DNA from: Chloracidobacterium validum
GTDB lineage: Bacteria > Acidobacteriota > Blastocatellia > Chloracidobacteriales > Chloracidobacteriaceae
DNA: 64,000 nucleotides
Assembly (NCBI RefSeq): GCF_018304825.1
Contig: NZ_CP072648.1
Coordinates: forward strand, 2,401,501-2,465,500
Reading direction: 5' to 3'
Shown: in pieces, positions 5,409-42,937 of the stretch
Layout of the letters: each line of letters starts with the position of its first letter
Position numbering within the stretch: the stretch's first letter is position 1
Notes under the pieces: model-generated
Told to the model about the DNA's origin: nothing
The model's input: only the letters and a program-made list of their open reading frames with translations
The model's database searches: none
Position numbers and translations under genes: made by a program

Positions 5409-6251
5409 TTACTCGAATTTTCCAGTCAGGTCAGCCCCTTCTGGAATTTCAAGGATATTGAGATTTTCAGCGACCCATTCATTGTGGCGGTATTCAACCG
5501 GATATTCTTTGCGCAGCGGAAATCCCACCCAGCCCTCTGGCAACAAAATGCGGCGGAGATCAGGATGTCCCTCAAAGCGGATGCCGAACATGTCATACAC
5601 CTCCCGCTCCAGCCAGTTGGCTGTCGCCCAAATATCACAAACGGTGTAGATGGACTGTTCTTCCGGCAACTCAGCTTTGACGCGCAGCCGCCGATTTTCT
5701 GGGATTGAATAGAGCTGGTAAACCACCTCGAAAGCCTTGCGGTCTGGATAGTGCACCGCCGTGACGTCGGTTAGGAGGTCGAACCGAATCGCAGCGTCGT
5801 AGCGCAAGTACCACAGCAGATCACGGGCGCGTTCGGGAACAACCCGAAGGATTTGCTGACCATTGCTGGTCACGGCTTCCTTGATGTCTTCTTGAAAAGC
5901 GGCCCGCAAACCGGCAATGAAGTTATCATCTTTGATGTCGGCATAGGCCGGAGCCGCTTCCTTCTTGGCTGGAGCCTTGGCAGCGGCCTTGGCGGGAGCT
6001 TTGGCCGCCACTTTTGCCGGCGCAGCCTTTGGCGCGTCCCCGTCGCGAGCGCCATCACCGGCTGCTGTCCCAGCGGAAGCTGCTTCGCGGGCGGCTTTAG
6101 CCGCGGCTGCCTTGGCCTTGGCGGCCGCAATCTTGGCTTCACGCTCAGGGTCAACTGGCGGGTCAGGTGCCGCCGTTGCGGCAGGGCCGTTGGCGGGAGC
6201 TTTCTCGGTTGGTGACGCCGCCTCTGGTACCGGCTTCGTTTCGTCGGACAT
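5409..6251 (-). CDS. nuoC: NADH-quinone oxidoreductase subunit C with Ala/Lys/Pro-rich N-terminal extension
   Basis: NuoC is the 30 kDa-type peripheral-arm subunit of complex I. The C-terminal 165 residues hold the conserved domain, ending with the signature WLEREVYDMFGIRFEGHPD and LRRILLPEGWVGFPLRKEYP. The first 115 or so residues are low-complexity, rich in Ala, Lys and Pro (AKAPAKAAAKAPAKKE), like histone-H1-type or PAK tails. Such an extension is not part of the family and is probably disordered and strongly basic. No clear ribosome binding site precedes the ATG at 6251. This is the first gene of the visible operon; nuoA and nuoB are not upstream. Confidence 0.93.
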   Translation of the reverse strand: MSDETKPVPEAASPTEKAPANGPAATAAPDPPVDPEREAKIAAAKAKAAAAKAAREAASAGTAAGDGARDGDAPKAAPAKVAAKAPAKAAAKAPAKKEAAPAYADIKDDNFIAGLRAAFQEDIKEAVTSNGQQILRVVPERARDLLWYLRYDAAIRFDLLTDVTAVHYPDRKAFEVVYQLYSIPENRRLRVKAELPEEQSIYTVCDIWATANWLEREVYDMFGIRFEGHPDLRRILLPEGWVGFPLRKEYPVEYRHNEWVAENLNILEIPEGADLTGKFE

Positions 6252-6440
6252 GGTCTATTGAAACCCCAATTGGTGCAGACTTGACGCTTCACTGTGCGCA
6301 GGCGTGCCCTGCGCAAGGCCCGCTTATAGACGAAGGCGCGTGCTGGTGGCTAGGCTAATTTCCACCTTTTTTCCGTTGCAAGTATATGATTCTGAATATG
6401 TTAGAAAACTTACGCTACTAATCTAGAAGGGTATCGAGGG

Positions 6441-6476
6441 CAAAAAATGGCGGGACGACTCATAGGTCGCCCCGCC
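6441..6476 (-). terminator. Rho-independent terminator of the radical SAM gene
   Basis: An 11-bp stem (ggcgggacgac / gtcgccccgcc, one mismatch) with a 6-base loop occupies 6449-6476. On the minus strand it is followed by a run of six T (6442-6447). It lies about 40 bases after the stop of the radical SAM gene and separates it from the nuo operon. Confidence 0.8.
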
Positions 6477-6516
6477 AGCCACGAGAGATTAGCCCGGTTC
6501 AGCGCAATCGTCCTGA

Positions 6517-8622
6517 TTACTTCACTACCGACACCCCATTGGCGCTTGCCGCGGCCGCCGCACCCGCCTGAGCCGCTTGGACCGCCACGCCATTACTGTT
6601 AGCGGTTGCCTTCTTGGCGCGACCAAGCTGGACGAGCTTCGTCTCGCCGTTCTTGATACCGAGGACTTTTTCTTTGAAGAGTTTTTCCATCAGGCGCTTC
6701 TCTTCAGCCGCCGTCATGGGTACGTCTTCATCGCGTGGGCGGACCCGTGCGGCGTCTTCAGCGTTGATGTTGAGGGTGTATGGGGCTTCCGACAGCGCGA
6801 CATTGCGGCCCTTGGCGTAGATTTCATGCTTGCCATGCTCTTTGTACCACTTGGCGACAGTGGCGTTTTTGTGCATGTCTTCGATGATGTTTCGCCAGCC
6901 AACCCCGGTGTTGTAGGCGCAAAAGGAAATTTCACCTTCCTGCGTGCCGTAGGGGATGATGCACATTTCCGTCCGACGGAAGTCGTAATTGAACAGGTCC
7001 TGGAACCACATGCCGGCAATGAACAGGAAGTTCCACCGATCACGCCGGCGCTTCTCGATGTCTTCACGGGTTCGGTTGCCCTTCACGCTGCCGTAGTCGC
7101 GGCCGGAAATACCCAGCGATTTGTCAAACTTCTCTATCAATGACTTGAGGGTAAAGTGCGTGGGCGACTTGTAGGCGTCATAGTTCCGCAGCAGTGACAG
7201 CGCCATCATAAACGACGAGAAAGCCCGCCCGCGTCCCGCGTCCGTGATGGTCTGCATGTCCTTGAGCAGTTGCGGCACGTTGATGAACTCTGGCACGGGC
7301 ACCATTTCCTTGGTTTCTTTGTCAATCATCACAGCCGTGCCAACGCCACAGTTTGGATGGCATCCGCAACTCAGGTGACCAAACTGGGCCTCTGGCCCGT
7401 GGGCGAGGTCGGCAAAGTCAGCGATGGTGCTCATGACCGAGATCGGAAACCAGTCACGGGTTGGTTCGGTAATCCCCACTTGGTCTTTCACGTCGTGCGC
7501 CAAGTGCGACAGGGTGTAGCGCTGACGCAGCCGCCGTTCATCGGTGATGTCTTCGTCGCGCCCGGTGAACGAAACTGGCTGGAACGAAATAAAGGCGATT
7601 TTCTTGGGGTTATCGAGCGCGAACCGAATCACCGGCGCGACCTGATCGTTGGTAATGCCGTTGACCAGCGTGACGACAAGGACGATTTCCACCCCGGCTT
7701 CATGAAGGTTTTCGATTGCCCGGAGCTTCACATCAAACAGGTTGCCGACCTGGCGATGGCTGTTAGCGTCGTTTCCAATGCCGTCAAACTGAAGATAGAC
7801 ATAACGCAGTCCAGCTTCGGCAGCCCGGCGGCAAAACTCCTTGCTCTTGGCAAACTCAATGCCGTTGGTGGCGCACTGGACACTGTTGTAACCCAGTTCA
7901 CGTGCATACCGAATGGCCTCAAAGAAATGTGGTGATAACGTCGGCTCACCGCCCGAAAACTGGACTGACATTTGTCGGCGGGGCTTGATGCTAATGGCGT
8001 TATCCAAAATCTCTTTGACTTCCTCAAGTGACAATTCATGCACGAAGCCCACTTGGTTGGCGTCCATAAAGCACGGATCACACATCATGTTGCAGCGATT
8101 GGTCAGATCAATGGTCAACACCGAGCCGCGCCCATGCTTGATTGAACTCGTGCCGTGATTGTGCAGCTTCGCGTCGTTGTGGGCATCAATGTCACGCCCT
8201 GGGAACTGAGCCTCGATATGGGACAAAAAGTCAGCATCCATGGCCATCAGGTCTTCAAACTTGCCATGGATTGGGCATTCCTTTTCCATCCAGACTTCGT
8301 CGCGCCCGGTCTCTGGATTATGCCGCTTGACGATTTGGGCTTTGATTTCGCCAACACGCTCGTTGATGAGAATCGTGTAATCCACTTCACCACTCAGAAT
8401 TTTCTCGCGCGCCTCTTTGACGCATTTTGGGCAAAGCGAGTCGGTCGTGCGTGGCCAGCCAAGGGTTGGCTTGGTCTTTTGCCACGACTTGAGCATCGGC
8501 TTATCTGACCACTTGGGGGTGAACGATGGCGCTGGGCGGTACTTATTGACCGATTGAATGGCTTCGAACAGCCCTCCCGCAATTTTCGACAGCGCTTTCT
8601 CAGCGTGTTTGATGGGCTTCAT
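6517..8622 (-). CDS. Radical SAM protein of the Tes/Mss (MJ0619-like) type; candidate membrane-spanning lipid synthase
   Basis: This is a 701-residue radical SAM protein. The N-terminal quarter has a Cys4-type motif (SLCPKC ... KECPIHGKFED), followed by LTIDLTNRCNMMCDPCFMD, whose CxxxCxxC binds the SAM [4Fe-4S] cluster, and SVQFSGGEPTLSP. A further Cys-rich block, SCGCHPNCGVGTAVMID, could ligate an auxiliary cluster. This order (rubredoxin-like Cys pairs, ThrAsn-Arg-Cys motif, auxiliary Cys) is that of the archaeal tetraether synthase Tes and the related bacterial Mss, which couple lipid tails. That it makes iso-diabolic acid or another membrane-spanning lipid is inference. The last 70 residues are Ala/Asn-rich. 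I chose the ATG at 8622, which has an AGGAG, over the longer frame that starts at 8736. It forms a single-gene unit with its own terminator. Confidence 0.75.
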   Translation of the reverse strand: MKPIKHAEKALSKIAGGLFEAIQSVNKYRPAPSFTPKWSDKPMLKSWQKTKPTLGWPRTTDSLCPKCVKEAREKILSGEVDYTILINERVGEIKAQIVKRHNPETGRDEVWMEKECPIHGKFEDLMAMDADFLSHIEAQFPGRDIDAHNDAKLHNHGTSSIKHGRGSVLTIDLTNRCNMMCDPCFMDANQVGFVHELSLEEVKEILDNAISIKPRRQMSVQFSGGEPTLSPHFFEAIRYARELGYNSVQCATNGIEFAKSKEFCRRAAEAGLRYVYLQFDGIGNDANSHRQVGNLFDVKLRAIENLHEAGVEIVLVVTLVNGITNDQVAPVIRFALDNPKKIAFISFQPVSFTGRDEDITDERRLRQRYTLSHLAHDVKDQVGITEPTRDWFPISVMSTIADFADLAHGPEAQFGHLSCGCHPNCGVGTAVMIDKETKEMVPVPEFINVPQLLKDMQTITDAGRGRAFSSFMMALSLLRNYDAYKSPTHFTLKSLIEKFDKSLGISGRDYGSVKGNRTREDIEKRRRDRWNFLFIAGMWFQDLFNYDFRRTEMCIIPYGTQEGEISFCAYNTGVGWRNIIEDMHKNATVAKWYKEHGKHEIYAKGRNVALSEAPYTLNINAEDAARVRPRDEDVPMTAAEEKRLMEKLFKEKVLGIKNGETKLVQLGRAKKATANSNGVAVQAAQAGAAAAASANGVSVVK

Positions 8623-9447
8623 GAGTCCTGTGTTTCTCCTGTGTGGGTGTAGTGATTCCCCGGTAATGAATCTGACTTCGGGCGACAATCTCGGGTTGCA
8701 CCAGCCGCTCACGAGCCTAGCGCAATCCACGGTCAAACGTTCTCAAGCCTGGGTGTCTGAACCGCGTATCTGAAGCACAAGCGATAACATACGGGTCCAG
8801 CCACACTGAACGCTTTGTGATGCGCCCGAATCTTGTGGGCCGCCTTGCAAGGTGTCAAGACCAACCCGTGTAGAGGGCTGGGCATGGCTCAAATAAATGT
8901 TAGTCCTGGTAGCCTGTGACGCTCGATGTCGCCACCGGTGTCAACGCTCGGCAGAACCGCTGTGGCCTCATATCACGAGCGCTGGTACGGGTGAAGGGGG
9001 ACAGTGCATCCGGCTCCATCCGCCCTTGTAAAGCTTCCCGGGTTCCACAAAGCATCCACAGGCAACTGTAAATAACCCATGAGAAGCTACACGAACTCTA
9101 AGCAACTAAACTGAACAAAAAAAAAGATTTCAGTCAGTCAATTGCACTAACTCGATGTAGATCAACAAGTTGACGCATCAGAAGTCACACGACTGGCGGT
9201 CGAAGCGCAAATGAGGGCTTGACACTTACTTTAGCCTTCAATAGATAAATATATGTCCAAAAAAGATTTCGCAGATTTGTCAAGAGTGAGCAAGGGGGGA
9301 ACGGACCACCGACCGGTCACGGCGTGGGCGTTGTTTTTCCACAGCCATCGGCAGGCGTGGTGGTGTGAGCGGAAGCATTGGTCAGGGTAACCCCCGCGCC
9401 CCGCATTTGCGGAAGGAAGGGAGTCAACACTTTAAGGAGCTATGTTC
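8623..9447. other. Long intergenic region, divergent promoters expected
   Basis: No gene is supported in these 825 bases between the divergently read radical SAM gene and the zinc-ribbon gene. The right half is AT-richer than its surroundings. Short open frames here (for example 9253-9390) lack a ribosome binding site and any recognisable sequence. A weak sigma-70-like element lies at 9219-9247. I recognise no tRNA, riboswitch or known small RNA. Confidence 0.6.
9219..9247 (+). promoter_or_regulatory. Possible sigma-70-type promoter upstream of the zinc-ribbon gene
   Basis: A perfect -35 box TTGACA (9219-9224) is followed after 17 bases by TAGATA (9242-9247), a poor -10 box, in an AT-rich stretch about 200 bases before the zinc-ribbon start. 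The -35 box is good but the -10 matches in only three positions. Confidence 0.3.
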
Positions 9448-9840
9448 ATGATAGACGCCGAGGACAACGTACTCGCGCCAACCTTTGAAGACATCCACCT
9501 CAACTGCGTTGAGTGCAATGCGCCATTTGTCTTCACGGCTGGCGAGCAGCAATTCTTTTTTGACAAGGGCTTGAAAAATCCTCCGAAGCGCTGCAAGCCG
9601 TGCAAAACACGCAAGAACGAGCGCTTCAATCAACTGTTGAGCATGATGGCGACAGATGGCAGTCGCCCGCGCATCCAGGTTGAGGTTGAATGTGCGGAGT
9701 GCGGCATCCAAACCACCGTTCCCTTTTTACCAACCCAGGGCCGGCCAGTGCTGTGTCGAGACTGTTTCGTGCGAGCACAGGTTTCCGCGCCGGTCTGCGC
9801 CAAGCCAATCGTCAAGTATCTGCCGCCAACCGCGGCCTAA
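9448..9840 (+). CDS. Zinc-ribbon domain protein, function unknown
   Basis: A small protein of about 130 residues with two Cys pairs in the N-terminal 50 residues (NCVECNAPF ... RCKPCKTRKNERFNQ). The spacing is that of the CxxC-x(n)-CxxC zinc ribbon found in bacterial proteins followed by a basic helix. A second set (VECAECGIQTTV ... LCRDCFVRA) forms another probable zinc-binding module. I take the ATG at 9448, which has AAGGAG eight bases upstream; the ATG at 9442 is only two bases from that Shine-Dalgarno. The gene stands alone and ends at a strong terminator. A nucleic-acid-binding role is possible but unproven. Confidence 0.8.
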   Translation: MIDAEDNVLAPTFEDIHLNCVECNAPFVFTAGEQQFFFDKGLKNPPKRCKPCKTRKNERFNQLLSMMATDGSRPRIQVEVECAECGIQTTVPFLPTQGRPVLCRDCFVRAQVSAPVCAKPIVKYLPPTAA

Positions 9841-9958
9841 ACCCTTTCGCCATAGAAAAACCAAGAACAAGTAGAGCTGAGGGCAGCCAAACGAACCGGG
9901 TTCAAAAATCATGTCACCCTAGCGAAAGGCCCACACTTTTCCATGACAAAGCCACAAG

Positions 9959-9998
9959 GGCGGTGTCACGGCGCAAAGCCACTGACACCGCCTTTTTT
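9959..9998 (+). terminator. Rho-independent terminator of the zinc-ribbon gene
   Basis: A perfect 10-bp stem (ggcggtgtca / tgacaccgcc, arms 9959-9968 and 9983-9992) is followed directly by six T. It lies about 120 bases after the stop at 9840. Confidence 0.9.
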
Positions 9999-10050
9999 CT
10001 GCTGGCTTGCGGTTTTTCTGCTGGCTTGCGGTTTTTCTGCTGGCTTGCGG
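9994..10050. repeat. Three perfect 19-bp tandem repeats after the terminator
   Basis: The unit tttttctgctggcttgcgg occurs three times without mismatch (9994-10012, 10013-10031, 10032-10050). It starts inside the T-tract of the terminator and lies between the zinc-ribbon gene and the 3' end of the HtrA gene. It does not encode a conserved peptide in a gene frame. Slippage expansion is the simplest explanation. Confidence 0.93.
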
Positions 10051-14005: not shown

Positions 14006-15940
14006 ATGACGCTTCTCAAAAATCAGTACCGGCTGCTCCAAGAACTTGGCAGTGGCGCGTTTGGTAAAACGTACTTAGCGGAGGATACCCATTCTCCATC
14101 GAACCGGCGCTGCGTCATCAAGCATCTGACGTGGAACCATGACCCACAGATGGCCCCAGCAGTGCGCGAGCGGTTCAAACGCGAAGCGGCACTCCTGGAA
14201 ATGCTAGGGCGTGGCTCGCAGGGCAGTATCCCGGAGTTGTATGCCTACTTCATTGAGGGCGAACAGTATTATCTCGTTCAGGAGTGGATTGACGGTGAGA
14301 CGCTCACGCAAAAACTTCGCCGGGAAGGCCCCCAGTCTGAAGCCGCCATTGTGAGCATCCTGTTGGGAGCATTGCGGGCAATTGACTACATTCACACGCG
14401 CCCGAACCCAATCATTCACCGTGACATCAAACCGGACAACATCATGCTGCGCCGTGCCAATGGACAGCCTGTTCTCATTGATTTTGGCGTTGTTAAGGAA
14501 GTGACGCAGGTGGATGGCAGTGGGTCGGGAGCCAATACCATCATGGCTGGTACAAGTGGCTACATGCCACTGGAACAGGCGGCCGGGCGACCAACGCTGG
14601 CCAGTGACATCTACGCCCTTGGTATGACCGCCATCACCCTGGCCACCGGACGCTCTCCGCGTGAGCTGGTTGACCCGCTCAGTGGCGAAGCGAACTGGCG
14701 GCCGGCCGCCCCACAAATTTCTCCAGCGCTGGCTGCCACCCTCGATATTGCTGTCCGACGCAATGACCGCGAACGCTTTCAGACGGCACGTGATTTTGCC
14801 GTGGCTCTTCAGAGCGTGATTGGCAACGCTAACGGACTGAGTGCGCCTACGGCCGCCGCACTAGTCAATCCGTCTGCCAATCAGGCAGGTGCGCTGCCAC
14901 AGGCCACGCTGTCGCCCATGCCTTCCCCAGCCCCCTTACACCCCATACCATCTGCCATCTCCAATCCACCCACATCCCCGACACCAGGGAGCGGCGTGAC
15001 AGCCATCATCAACCAGATTCAGGCACAGCACAGCCAGTCCCAGCATAAGCAGAAGGAGTCATCAAATGTGATTCTGCCGCTGCTCAGCATCGGACTTGCG
15101 CTGATTCTGCTCACGGCGGCCGGCATCACGTTCTGGTGGGTCATCGCGCCATCGTCCGGCTATCGCTCAAGTGCCGCTAGGTCAACAGACCCAAAACCGA
15201 CCGACCCCAAGCCGCAACCACCAGACAGAGAAGTGCCGTCACCGCCGCAGCCAACACCGCCGCCGGGCATGGTTTTCATTCTAGGCGGTGACTTTCGCAT
15301 GGGGAGTGACCAAGCAGAAGACCCAGCCGAAACCCCGGCCCACCGCGTTACTGTTGCGCCATTTTTTCTTGATAAGCACGAAGTCACCAACATTGAATAT
15401 GAGGCGTTCATCCGGGCGACTGGACACCCTGCGCCACCGGATTGGGTAGATAGGAACTATCCAGCCGGCACGGCAAACTATCCGGTCAGCAATGTTTCCT
15501 GGGACGATGCCCGCGCCTATGCGGCCTGGGCCGGCAAGCGGCTGCCAAGTGAAGTCGAATGGGAGTTTGCAGCGCGCGGCACCGCTGGCCGCCAGTATCC
15601 GTGGGGAAATCAGTTTGACGCACGCTGTCTCAACTCAGCCGAGACGAAGATTGGACGCACCAAAGCAGTTGGGAATTTTCCATCGGGTGCCACTCCAGAG
15701 GGGGTCCTCGATCTAGCGGGCAACGTCGCCGAGTGGACTGCATCGGATGATAGTCCGTACCCAGGAAGCGTCGTTAAGCCAGTTGCCAACACCAAGATTG
15801 TCCGGGGCGGTGGGTTCTCACTTCCGCGCAAGTATGCCTCCACAACAAAGCGGACTCAGGTGCCCCCTGAGACACGCGATCCGGCACTCGGCTTTCGCTG
15901 TGCCAAAGACATTCCAACAACACCAAACCGTCGTCCATAA
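14006..15940 (+). CDS. Ser/Thr protein kinase with transmembrane segment and C-terminal FGE/sulfatase-modifying-factor domain
   Basis: A 644-residue membrane-anchored signalling protein. Residues 8-270 form a Hanks-type kinase: Gly loop GSGAFGKTY, catalytic Lys in CVIKHL, HRDIKPDN, DFG in LIDFGVV, and APE-like MPLEQA. A Pro/Ser-rich linker leads to one membrane helix (about 355-378). From about 422 an FGE-sulfatase (SUMF1) domain follows: GGDFRMGSDQAEDP, FFLDKHEVTN, NVSWDDARAYAAWAGKRLP, LAGNVAEWTA and the end GFRCAKD. The kinase lies inside and the FGE-like domain in the periplasm, as in Pkn1-type proteins. The latter is probably a ligand-binding fold. A second gene with this domain follows 22 bases later. 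Confidence 0.92.
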   Translation: MTLLKNQYRLLQELGSGAFGKTYLAEDTHSPSNRRCVIKHLTWNHDPQMAPAVRERFKREAALLEMLGRGSQGSIPELYAYFIEGEQYYLVQEWIDGETLTQKLRREGPQSEAAIVSILLGALRAIDYIHTRPNPIIHRDIKPDNIMLRRANGQPVLIDFGVVKEVTQVDGSGSGANTIMAGTSGYMPLEQAAGRPTLASDIYALGMTAITLATGRSPRELVDPLSGEANWRPAAPQISPALAATLDIAVRRNDRERFQTARDFAVALQSVIGNANGLSAPTAAALVNPSANQAGALPQATLSPMPSPAPLHPIPSAISNPPTSPTPGSGVTAIINQIQAQHSQSQHKQKESSNVILPLLSIGLALILLTAAGITFWWVIAPSSGYRSSAARSTDPKPTDPKPQPPDREVPSPPQPTPPPGMVFILGGDFRMGSDQAEDPAETPAHRVTVAPFFLDKHEVTNIEYEAFIRATGHPAPPDWVDRNYPAGTANYPVSNVSWDDARAYAAWAGKRLPSEVEWEFAARGTAGRQYPWGNQFDARCLNSAETKIGRTKAVGNFPSGATPEGVLDLAGNVAEWTASDDSPYPGSVVKPVANTKIVRGGGFSLPRKYASTTKRTQVPPETRDPALGFRCAKDIPTTPNRRP

Positions 15941-41353: not shown

Positions 41354-42937
41354 GTGATTTGTACGCCGCTCGCTGCCGAGACACCCGAAGCCCTTTTCAC
41401 CGCCTTGGCATCCGCGGACACCGCCTCCGATTGGCTGGAGTTACGGCTGGATGCGCTCCGTGACCTGACAGCCGACGCCGTGAACCACACGCTCCGTCAG
41501 GCGCTGGCGAGGCGAAGGAAGCCAGTCATTGCCACATTCCGTCCCCGTGAGCAAGGTGGCTTGCGCGACCTAACCCGCGCTGAGCGCCTGCGGTTCTGGG
41601 GCAACGCCTTGCAGACCGACGCCGATGCCTTTGACATCGAGTCCGACCTCATCCCGCACTTGGTTTCGGCTTATCCACCCGACCATCCGGTTTGGTTGCG
41701 CGTCGTCGCCTCGCACCACGACTTCCAGACCACGCCGGCCGACGTCACCGGCTTCGTAGCGGCGCACTTTCCACCGTACGCTGGGACGATCAAGTTAGCG
41801 ACCAGCGTGGAGCGTCCCGATGCGGTTTGGCGGCTCTTTGCGTGGCTGACCGGTTCACCTCAACAACCAATGAAAATCCCGGTTGGGATGGGGTCGGCCG
41901 GGATATTGACACGCATCTTGGGACCAGCCTATGGCGCGCGGTGGACCTACGCTGCCAGCCAGGATGGTCGGACACTCGCCCCCGGACAGCTACCGGCCGA
42001 CGAGCTACGTCATACGTTTCGCCTTCCCGACCTCAATCGCCACACGGTTGTGGCTGGGCTGCTGGGGCAGCCGGTTGGGCATTCACTCTCGAAATACTTG
42101 CACAACGCCGCCTTCACTCACCTTGGCCTGAATTGGGTATATATTCCAGTTGAAGTGTCACCCGCTGACCTCGGTTCGTTTGTCCGGGACTTCATCCATC
42201 CACGCACGCGGCGCGTCCCCTGGCCGGTGGGTGGCTACAGCGTGACACTGCCGCACAAAGTCGCTGTGATAGCGCATCTCGACCAACTGACGCCAACCGC
42301 CGAGCGGGTTGGGGCGGTCAATACCATCCTCATTCGTGACCAGGCACTGATTGGCGACAACACGGATGTCTGCGGGGCACTGCATCCGCTGACGCAACGC
42401 TTTGAACTTGCCGGGCAGCCGGTGGCCGTCCTTGGCGCGGGTGGCGCAGCGGCCGCCGTCACCTGTGGACTGGTTGACGCTGGCGCACAGGTGACGGTGT
42501 TTGCTCGCAATCCCGAACGTGGAAAAATGCTCGGAGAACGGTTTGGGATTTCGGTGATGCCGCTTGACCAGTTCCAGGGCCGGCGCTTCACCGGACTGGT
42601 CAACACCACGCCTATCGGCATGATGGGCTATGCCGCAGAGAGCGAGTTCCCCGTGTCGCCGACCACACTTGACGGACTGACGTGGGTGTATGACCTCATT
42701 TACCGTCCGCGCTGCACGCCACTGCTTCAAGCGGCCAGCCGGCAGGGACGGGCGACGCTGGATGGTCTCCCCATGCTGGTGACGCAAGCCGCCGCCCAAT
42801 TCGCCCACTGGACCGGACAAGCGCCGCCCGAAACCGTCCTTCAGGCGGCGGCGGAACGCGCCCTGGCGACTCAGCCCGCCGGCGTGACCTCCAGGAGCGA
42901 CTTGACCATTTTGAACGCATCATCGCCATCCGCGTAG
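41354..42937 (+). CDS. Fused type I 3-dehydroquinate dehydratase and shikimate dehydrogenase (AroD-AroE)
   Basis: One chain of 527 residues carries two shikimate-pathway steps. The AroD part (1-215) shows WLELRLDAL, VVASHHDF with the catalytic His, IKLATS with the Schiff-base Lys, and PVGMGSAG. The AroE part (about 235-500) shows GQPVGHSLSKYLHNAAF, SVTLPHKVAVIAHLD with the catalytic Lys, GDNTDVCG with the catalytic Asp, AVLGAGGAAAAVTCGL for NADP, and NTTPIGM. Such fusions are known in plants, Chlamydia and some Planctomycetes. Translation starts with GTG at 41354. The last 20 or so codons overlap the convergent GNAT gene. Confidence 0.94.
   Translation: MICTPLAAETPEALFTALASADTASDWLELRLDALRDLTADAVNHTLRQALARRRKPVIATFRPREQGGLRDLTRAERLRFWGNALQTDADAFDIESDLIPHLVSAYPPDHPVWLRVVASHHDFQTTPADVTGFVAAHFPPYAGTIKLATSVERPDAVWRLFAWLTGSPQQPMKIPVGMGSAGILTRILGPAYGARWTYAASQDGRTLAPGQLPADELRHTFRLPDLNRHTVVAGLLGQPVGHSLSKYLHNAAFTHLGLNWVYIPVEVSPADLGSFVRDFIHPRTRRVPWPVGGYSVTLPHKVAVIAHLDQLTPTAERVGAVNTILIRDQALIGDNTDVCGALHPLTQRFELAGQPVAVLGAGGAAAAVTCGLVDAGAQVTVFARNPERGKMLGERFGISVMPLDQFQGRRFTGLVNTTPIGMMGYAAESEFPVSPTTLDGLTWVYDLIYRPRCTPLLQAASRQGRATLDGLPMLVTQAAAQFAHWTGQAPPETVLQAAAERALATQPAGVTSRSDLTILNASSPSA

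Follow-up and report, generated by a model that had tools for sequence, protein, structure and literature searches.

The gene designated P0001 in Chloracidobacterium validum encodes a Tes-derived variant, a pared-down bacterial form of the tetraether synthase Tes with which archaea join two lipid tails end to end, and we regard it as the best candidate for the iso-diabolic-acid-making enzyme of many soil and hot-spring Acidobacteria. By analogy with the archaeal enzyme MJ0619, the protein probably links two iso-C15 acyl chains through their methyl ends to give iso-diabolic acid. For P0001 the gene, the family, the residues, the tree and the distribution are established, while substrate, product, electron supply and membrane docking are inferred. 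Palaeothermometers in wide use for soils and lakes rest on the brGDGTs and on iso-diabolic acid, from which these are built, and a candidate that consists of one gene, is found throughout the class and has a defined active site is directly testable.

The general idea has a precedent: Zeng et al. 2022 (PMC8941075) reported Tes homologues in Acidobacteria, including one with 32% identity in Edaphobacter aggregans that may well belong to the P0001 family, and suggested that they make brGDGTs. What is added here is the definition of a cluster-poor subfamily that is nested in Tes and universal in the sampled Blastocatellia, its contrast with two paralogues, and the pairing of Tes with Ger-like genes.

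The gene and its surroundings

P0001 is a single open frame of 701 codons in the window, the whole stretch of 64,000 nucleotides that was analysed, within a genome of two replicons (2.66 and 1.00 Mb, 3.66 Mb in total). Its start codon is the ATG at 8622; an alternative TTG at 8736 was rejected, since the ribosome-binding site and a first methionine that is invariant in the 26 aligned orthologues favour the ATG. The sequence-only reading had described a single gene with its own terminator, which is borne out by the hairpin that sets it apart from nuoC (Table 1). Named loci of the family come from Chloracidobacterium, Pyrinomonadaceae, gp2, gp4, gp5, gp18, subdivision 13, Terriglobia, Acidiferrales and Sulfopaludibacter, and in the flanks of 80 such loci no lipid gene recurs throughout the phylum, the neighbours that do recur being lineage-specific. 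On the opposite strand, some 800 bases away from where P0001 starts, lies a gene for a small protein that has a pair of treble-clef zinc fingers (zf_Tbcl and zf_Tbcl_2; 9442-9840, +). The window also encodes a fusion of a serine/threonine kinase with an FGE-sulfatase domain, a sulfatase-modifying factor (14006-15940, +), and a fusion of type I 3-dehydroquinase with shikimate dehydrogenase (41354-42937, +).

Table 1 Features of the P0001 gene and of related loci (positions are those of the window unless a locus is named)
Feature	Position	Strand	Evidence
Tes-like radical SAM gene P0001, candidate iso-diabolic-acid synthase	6517..8622	-	ORF, start, family match
AGGAG ribosome-binding site, 13 nt 5' of ATG 8622	8636..8640	-	sequence
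Amphipathic N-terminal helix, residues 3-26, family-conserved	8545..8616	-	AF2 helix, pLDDT about 90; hydrophobic moment about 0.5
Rubredoxin/HMPTM-type zinc-ribbon domain, C64/C67/C116/H119	8242..8454	-	PF23545, E 4e-12; equivalent to C9/C12/C33/H36 of MJ0619 (PMC9433317)
Site of the Tes N-terminal [4Fe-4S] motif, cysteine-free in P0001; H154/H156 invariant	8143..8175	-	alignments
Radical SAM core, CX3CX2C C177/C181/C184 (C177NMMC181DPC184), Q348/S351 adenosine site	7567..8121	-	PF04055, E 1e-22; alignments
CGCHPNCG in the C-terminal cluster region: C425 equivalent to MJ0619 C338; additional pair C419/C421	7345..7368	-	alignments
C-terminal cluster segment: M538 (M439 in MJ0619), C554 (C455), Y558 (Y459), C568 (C470)	6919..7011	-	alignments
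Ala/Asn-rich C-terminal tail, variable among orthologues, predicted disordered (residues 660-701, pLDDT <50)	6520..6645	-	alignment, AF2
Intrinsic terminator: 12-bp stem, 6-nt loop, then TTTTTT	6448..6477	-	sequence; fold z-score -3.3
nuoC, next gene on the same strand	5409-6251	-	
Canonical Tes and adjacent Ger-like BcrAD/DUF2229 gene	L204 8528-10183 and 5181-8279	-	
Canonical Tes and adjacent Ger-like BcrAD/DUF2229 gene	L205 4514-6151 and 1298-4438	-	

Family assignment by sequence and fold

The best NCBIfam match of P0001 is Tes/GDGT-MAS (NF045702) at 322 bits and an E-value of about 6e-96, below the curated cutoff of 450 bits for this equivalog, and the orthologues tested score 302-334 bits. 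The best match in the PDB is the Methanocaldococcus jannaschii GDGT-MAS/Tes MJ0619 (7tol; E 9.5e-62); the TrsS model NF045646 yields 208 bits, under its own cutoff of 490 bits. The 26 orthologues are 49-79% identical to P0001 with well over 100 invariant columns, and judged by these alignments the match to Tes is not due to chance. An AlphaFold (AF2) model built from the 26 orthologues (pLDDT 82) retrieved 7tom/7tol first in a Foldseek search (E 3e-31, TM 0.85-0.86 of target), followed by MoaA at E 5e-8, the SPASM protein SuiB reaching E 9e-5. P0001 thus matches Tes far better than SuiB, and it lacks the SPASM-type AuxI/AuxII C-terminal domain by which Gms, the GMGT synthase (PMC11186832), would be recognised. 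A search of plasmids for relatives returned distant Tes/TrsS-like proteins only. Sequence and fold, together with the ligand residues and the tree, lend strong support to the Tes-like nature proposed in the sequence-only reading, and the outcome that would have refuted it, another radical SAM subfamily as the best match, was not seen.

Metallocofactor sites and active-site residues

The ligands of MJ0619 were taken from Lloyd et al. (PMC9433317), with the numbering checked against the PDB sequence, in which every named residue tested matched. C338, C455 and C470 of MJ0619 were set as the cysteines of the C-terminal cluster by conservation, whereas the Met ligand is the one named by Lloyd et al.; at the rubredoxin site C33/H36 were matched by alignment and the CX2C pair (C9/C12) by motif.

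P0001 and archaeal Tes (MJ0619, 7TOL/7TOM, NF045702) are about 28% identical and have in common the core fold, the rubredoxin-type site and the radical SAM cluster, as well as the C-terminal cluster cysteines, the labile Met, the active-site Tyr and the Gln/Ser of the SAM site. The rubredoxin-type CX2C...CX2H quartet is invariant in the P0001 family, in a domain whose loop is about 28 residues longer than that of MJ0619; the radical SAM cysteines correspond to C98/C102/C105 of MJ0619 and Q348/S351 to Gln268/Ser271, and the coupling-site residues (C-terminal cluster Cys, Met and Tyr) are kept in every aligned member of the family. In contrast, one of the four metallocofactor sites, the N-terminal [4Fe-4S] motif, is absent: C73/C77/C80 of MJ0619 (CX3CX2C), which sit between the rubredoxin and radical SAM motifs, are replaced by gap/H156/S159 in P0001 and in all aligned orthologues. 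P0001 further differs from archaeal Tes in the C419/C421 pair, which is invariant in its own family and has no counterpart in MJ0619, in a C-terminal extension of about 130 residues and in an additional N-terminal helix that, going by the model, is possibly a membrane-docking element.

The cysteine motifs quoted in the sequence-only reading (C64PKC67, C116PIH119, C177NMMC181DPC184 and C419GC421HPNC425) are all present and the Ala/Asn-rich end is real. Their order, which had been likened to that of Tes, agrees at three of the four sites and departs from it where the N-terminal CX3CX2C is missing and the C419/C421 pair is extra; the further expectation of three clusters of Tes type is not supported, as the ligands of the N-terminal cluster are absent. 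MJ0619 keeps activity after mutation of Met439 or Tyr459 (PMC9433317), so that the Met/Tyr pair marks lineage and does not prove activity.

Phylogenetic position and paralogues

In trees of 43 sequences, and of 40 sequences with three long branches left out, the P0001 family forms one clade (100/100) inside Tes, beside the acidobacterial Tes families f53 and f10. The joint clade of Tes and the P0001 family, with the TrsS-like proteins outside, has a support of 100/98, and a topology that keeps the two apart is rejected (p-AU 0.012); the stem branch of the family is long (1.74 changes per site). Canonical acidobacterial Tes (for example L139, L159, L171 and L189 5818-7596) constitutes the parent clade and has the same coupling-site residues, but differs from P0001 in keeping the N-terminal cluster, in scoring above 450 bits and in its length of about 550 residues. 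One of the canonical Tes proteins nearest to the family (L171, in genome G089) combines the N-terminal cluster motif with the extra Cys pair of the P0001 family and, from its sequence, looks like an evolutionary intermediate between the two.

The C. validum genome encodes two further Tes-like proteins, on C2 at 297 kb and on C1 at 208 kb. The N-terminal cluster motif, CPxDCG(L/I)CPDH, is retained in each, and in the tree they sit among further TrsS-like proteins, not within the Tes clade. The coupling-site Met/Tyr is lost from each, being Q/F in L002 and V/I in L003, where C470 is in addition replaced by Asp and the C-terminal cluster cysteines are missing. Only P0001 among the three thus keeps the coupling site, and its paralogues would appear to be poor candidates for lipid coupling. 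TrsS-like proteins in general (NF045646) share the Tes-like N-terminal and radical SAM domains with P0001 but have lost the coupling-site Met/Tyr and some cluster Cys, and several adjoin a methyltransferase gene. On the second chromosome of C. validum a Tes-like/TrsS-like radical SAM gene overlaps a SAM methyltransferase gene and adjoins a disulfide oxidoreductase-like gene (L200 3211-5768, -), and at L199 1838-4061 (+) such a gene overlaps one resembling Lgt (prolipoprotein diacylglyceryl transferase).

Distribution and lipid phenotype

The survey covered 297 Acidobacteriota genomes that were 90% complete or more. The P0001 family (best E <1e-150) occurs in 138 and canonical Tes (>450 bits) in 32, with both in 12 and neither in 139. 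Mutual exclusion of the two types is not supported by these 12 genomes (Fisher p 0.35). All 37 sampled Blastocatellia, C. validum included, carry the family, and in 12 near-complete Blastocatellia it accounts for the sole Tes-family gene at E<=1e-35.

Chloracidobacterium itself contains iso-diabolic acid (PMC12816986) and the lipid is common to subdivision 4 strains (PMC4644332), as the sequence-only reading had stated for this subdivision; a survey of seven subdivisions, cited in PMC13274423, found it in subdivisions 1, 3, 4 and 6. The agreement between gene and lipid holds only at the level of groups (genus or class), not genome by genome. Solibacter usitatus has Tes homologues, yet no detectable iso-diabolic acid (PMC10087280), and some organisms that are not known to have membrane-spanning lipids also encode Tes-like radical SAM proteins, which makes homology by itself a poor proof. 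The proposed role in membrane-spanning lipid synthesis accordingly gains indirect support: the genus makes iso-diabolic acid, the gene is class-wide, and the coupling site is confined to P0001 among the paralogues.

Thermotoga and Bacillota possess a membrane-spanning lipid synthase, Mss (Sahonero-Canavesi et al. 2022, as described in PMC13274423 and PMC11868695), for which the coupling of fatty-acyl tails of bacterial lipids is proposed, as it is here for P0001. Tes and Mss had been treated as one group in the sequence-only reading and should be split. No protein of T. maritima, a source of Mss-type lipids that was used as a control, matches the Tes model at E<=1e-22 (compared with 5e-96 for P0001), which at this genome-level comparison would place the Thermotoga enzyme outside the Tes clade; in a recent survey, too, Tes and Mss were searched for with a query each (PMC11868695). 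Bacillota with Mss also produce iso-diabolic acid (PMC13274423), so that another enzyme type can give the same product. Once the P0001 family is told apart from full-length Tes (with Ger) and from Mss of the Thermotoga type, makers of ester-linked iso-diabolic acid and makers of brGDGTs could be predicted from their genomes.

Proposed mechanism and alternative functions

For MJ0619 it has been demonstrated (PMC9433317) that hydrogen is abstracted twice, each time with SAM, that the first carbon is held on the C-terminal cluster through a C-S bond and that a second radical attacks it there. By our reading of the structures, the iso-diabolic junction -CH(CH3)-CH2-CH2-CH(CH3)- is identical to the middle of the archaeal biphytane, the bond in both joining the methyl ends of chains that terminate in isopropyl. 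P0001, possibly docked on the membrane by its amphipathic N-terminal helix, would take iso-C15 acyl chains of bilayer lipids as its substrate and yield iso-diabolic acid. By analogy with MJ0619, its radical SAM cluster would cleave SAM, and the resulting 5'-deoxyadenosyl radical would abstract hydrogen from the terminal methyl of the first chain; the C-terminal [4Fe-4S] cluster (C425, C554, C568 and the labile M538) would then hold the carbon radical in a C-S bond until a second SAM generates a radical on the second chain, whose attack on the parked carbon would form the C-C bond. With the N-terminal surface cluster of Tes lost, electrons must presumably reach P0001 by another route, and this natural loss suggests which Tes cofactor the coupling chemistry can spare.

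We consider it unlikely that P0001, although it has the Tes fold and modifies lipids, gives a different product (by coupling at other carbons, by coupling ether lipids only, or by another radical modification of the tails such as methyl-branching) and that iso-diabolic acid is made otherwise. The lost N-terminal cluster, the invariant C419/C421 pair that was gained and the long stem branch would all suit such a change, and the coexistence of both types in some genomes, side by side in one, means that the two need not do the same thing; set against this are the coupling-site Cys, Met and Tyr kept throughout the aligned family, and the 12 near-complete Blastocatellia that have no other Tes-family gene in a class reported to make iso-diabolic acid. 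Proximity of the two types also invites the reading that P0001 acts with, or helps, canonical Tes in brGDGT synthesis rather than being a synthase in its own right: in genome G243 (L189) an orthologue at 7842-10001 (-) is followed by canonical Tes at 5818-7596 (-), 245 nt apart, and in G107 and G065 the two lie about 4-6 kb from one another. A helper of this kind is nonetheless quite improbable, with canonical Tes missing from 126 of the 138 genomes that have the P0001 type, Chloracidobacterium among them.

Less probable still is that P0001 belongs to the wider Tes/TrsS/HMPTM group of radical SAM enzymes and acts on something other than a lipid. The name of PF23545 in Pfam is still the discarded pterin-methyltransferase annotation, and relatives in the wider group adjoin methyltransferase genes in haloarchaea and a mycolicibacterium, but P0001 has no methyltransferase neighbour, groups with Tes instead of the TrsS-like proteins and keeps the coupling-site residues that these have lost; the pterin role was moreover rejected for MJ0619 itself (PMC9433317). 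The slimmest chance is that another Tes-like protein of the genome makes iso-diabolic acid. Both paralogues do retain the N-terminal cluster motif that P0001 lacks; against them stand the missing Met/Tyr pair in both, the loss of the C-terminal cluster cysteines from L003, their place outside the Tes clade, their absence from many Blastocatellia and their company, a methyltransferase gene in one case and an Lgt-like gene in the other. Coupling of acyl chains by P0001 itself remains our preferred reading.

Canonical Tes and Ger-like genes

The C. validum genome has no match to PF09989 (DUF2229), the marker of Ger/PlsA that does match in T. maritima, which implies that the known anaerobic ester-to-ether route is absent there. 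Of the 32 genomes that have canonical Tes, 24 contain DUF2229, as against 48 of the 265 that lack canonical Tes (odds ratio 13.6, p 1e-10, uncorrected for kinship), and it turns up in only 16 of 126 genomes with the P0001 family alone; the domain occurs in other enzymes too and is hence only a marker of Ger. In two genomes (G164 and G218) canonical Tes adjoins, on one strand, a gene for a Ger-like BcrAD/DUF2229 protein of 1032-1046 residues (Table 1), and such adjacent genes are likely a tetraether (brGDGT) gene pair. This arrangement suggests that full-length Tes with a Ger-like gene may serve ether-linked brGDGTs, separate from ester-linked iso-diabolic acid, which would fall to the P0001 family. 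The wider scheme, in which the phylum-wide cluster-loss derivative of Tes is the iso-diabolic-acid synthase while full-length Tes and a Ger-like ester reductase make brGDGTs, is put forward tentatively, as a proposition that might almost equally be right or wrong; if true, two routes to bacterial membrane-spanning lipids would be distinguishable by gene content.

Further relatives

In two haloarchaea and one mycolicibacterium (L195, L196 and L198) a recurring two-gene unit consists of a TrsS-like radical SAM gene and, immediately after it, one for a methyltransferase. A second subfamily with the motif CNCHPNCG and about 50-55% identity to P0001 (L055, L056 and L058; for example G268:C4:906578-908440) is found as second copies in many Blastocatellia and in family f32, and possibly has a second product or substrate.
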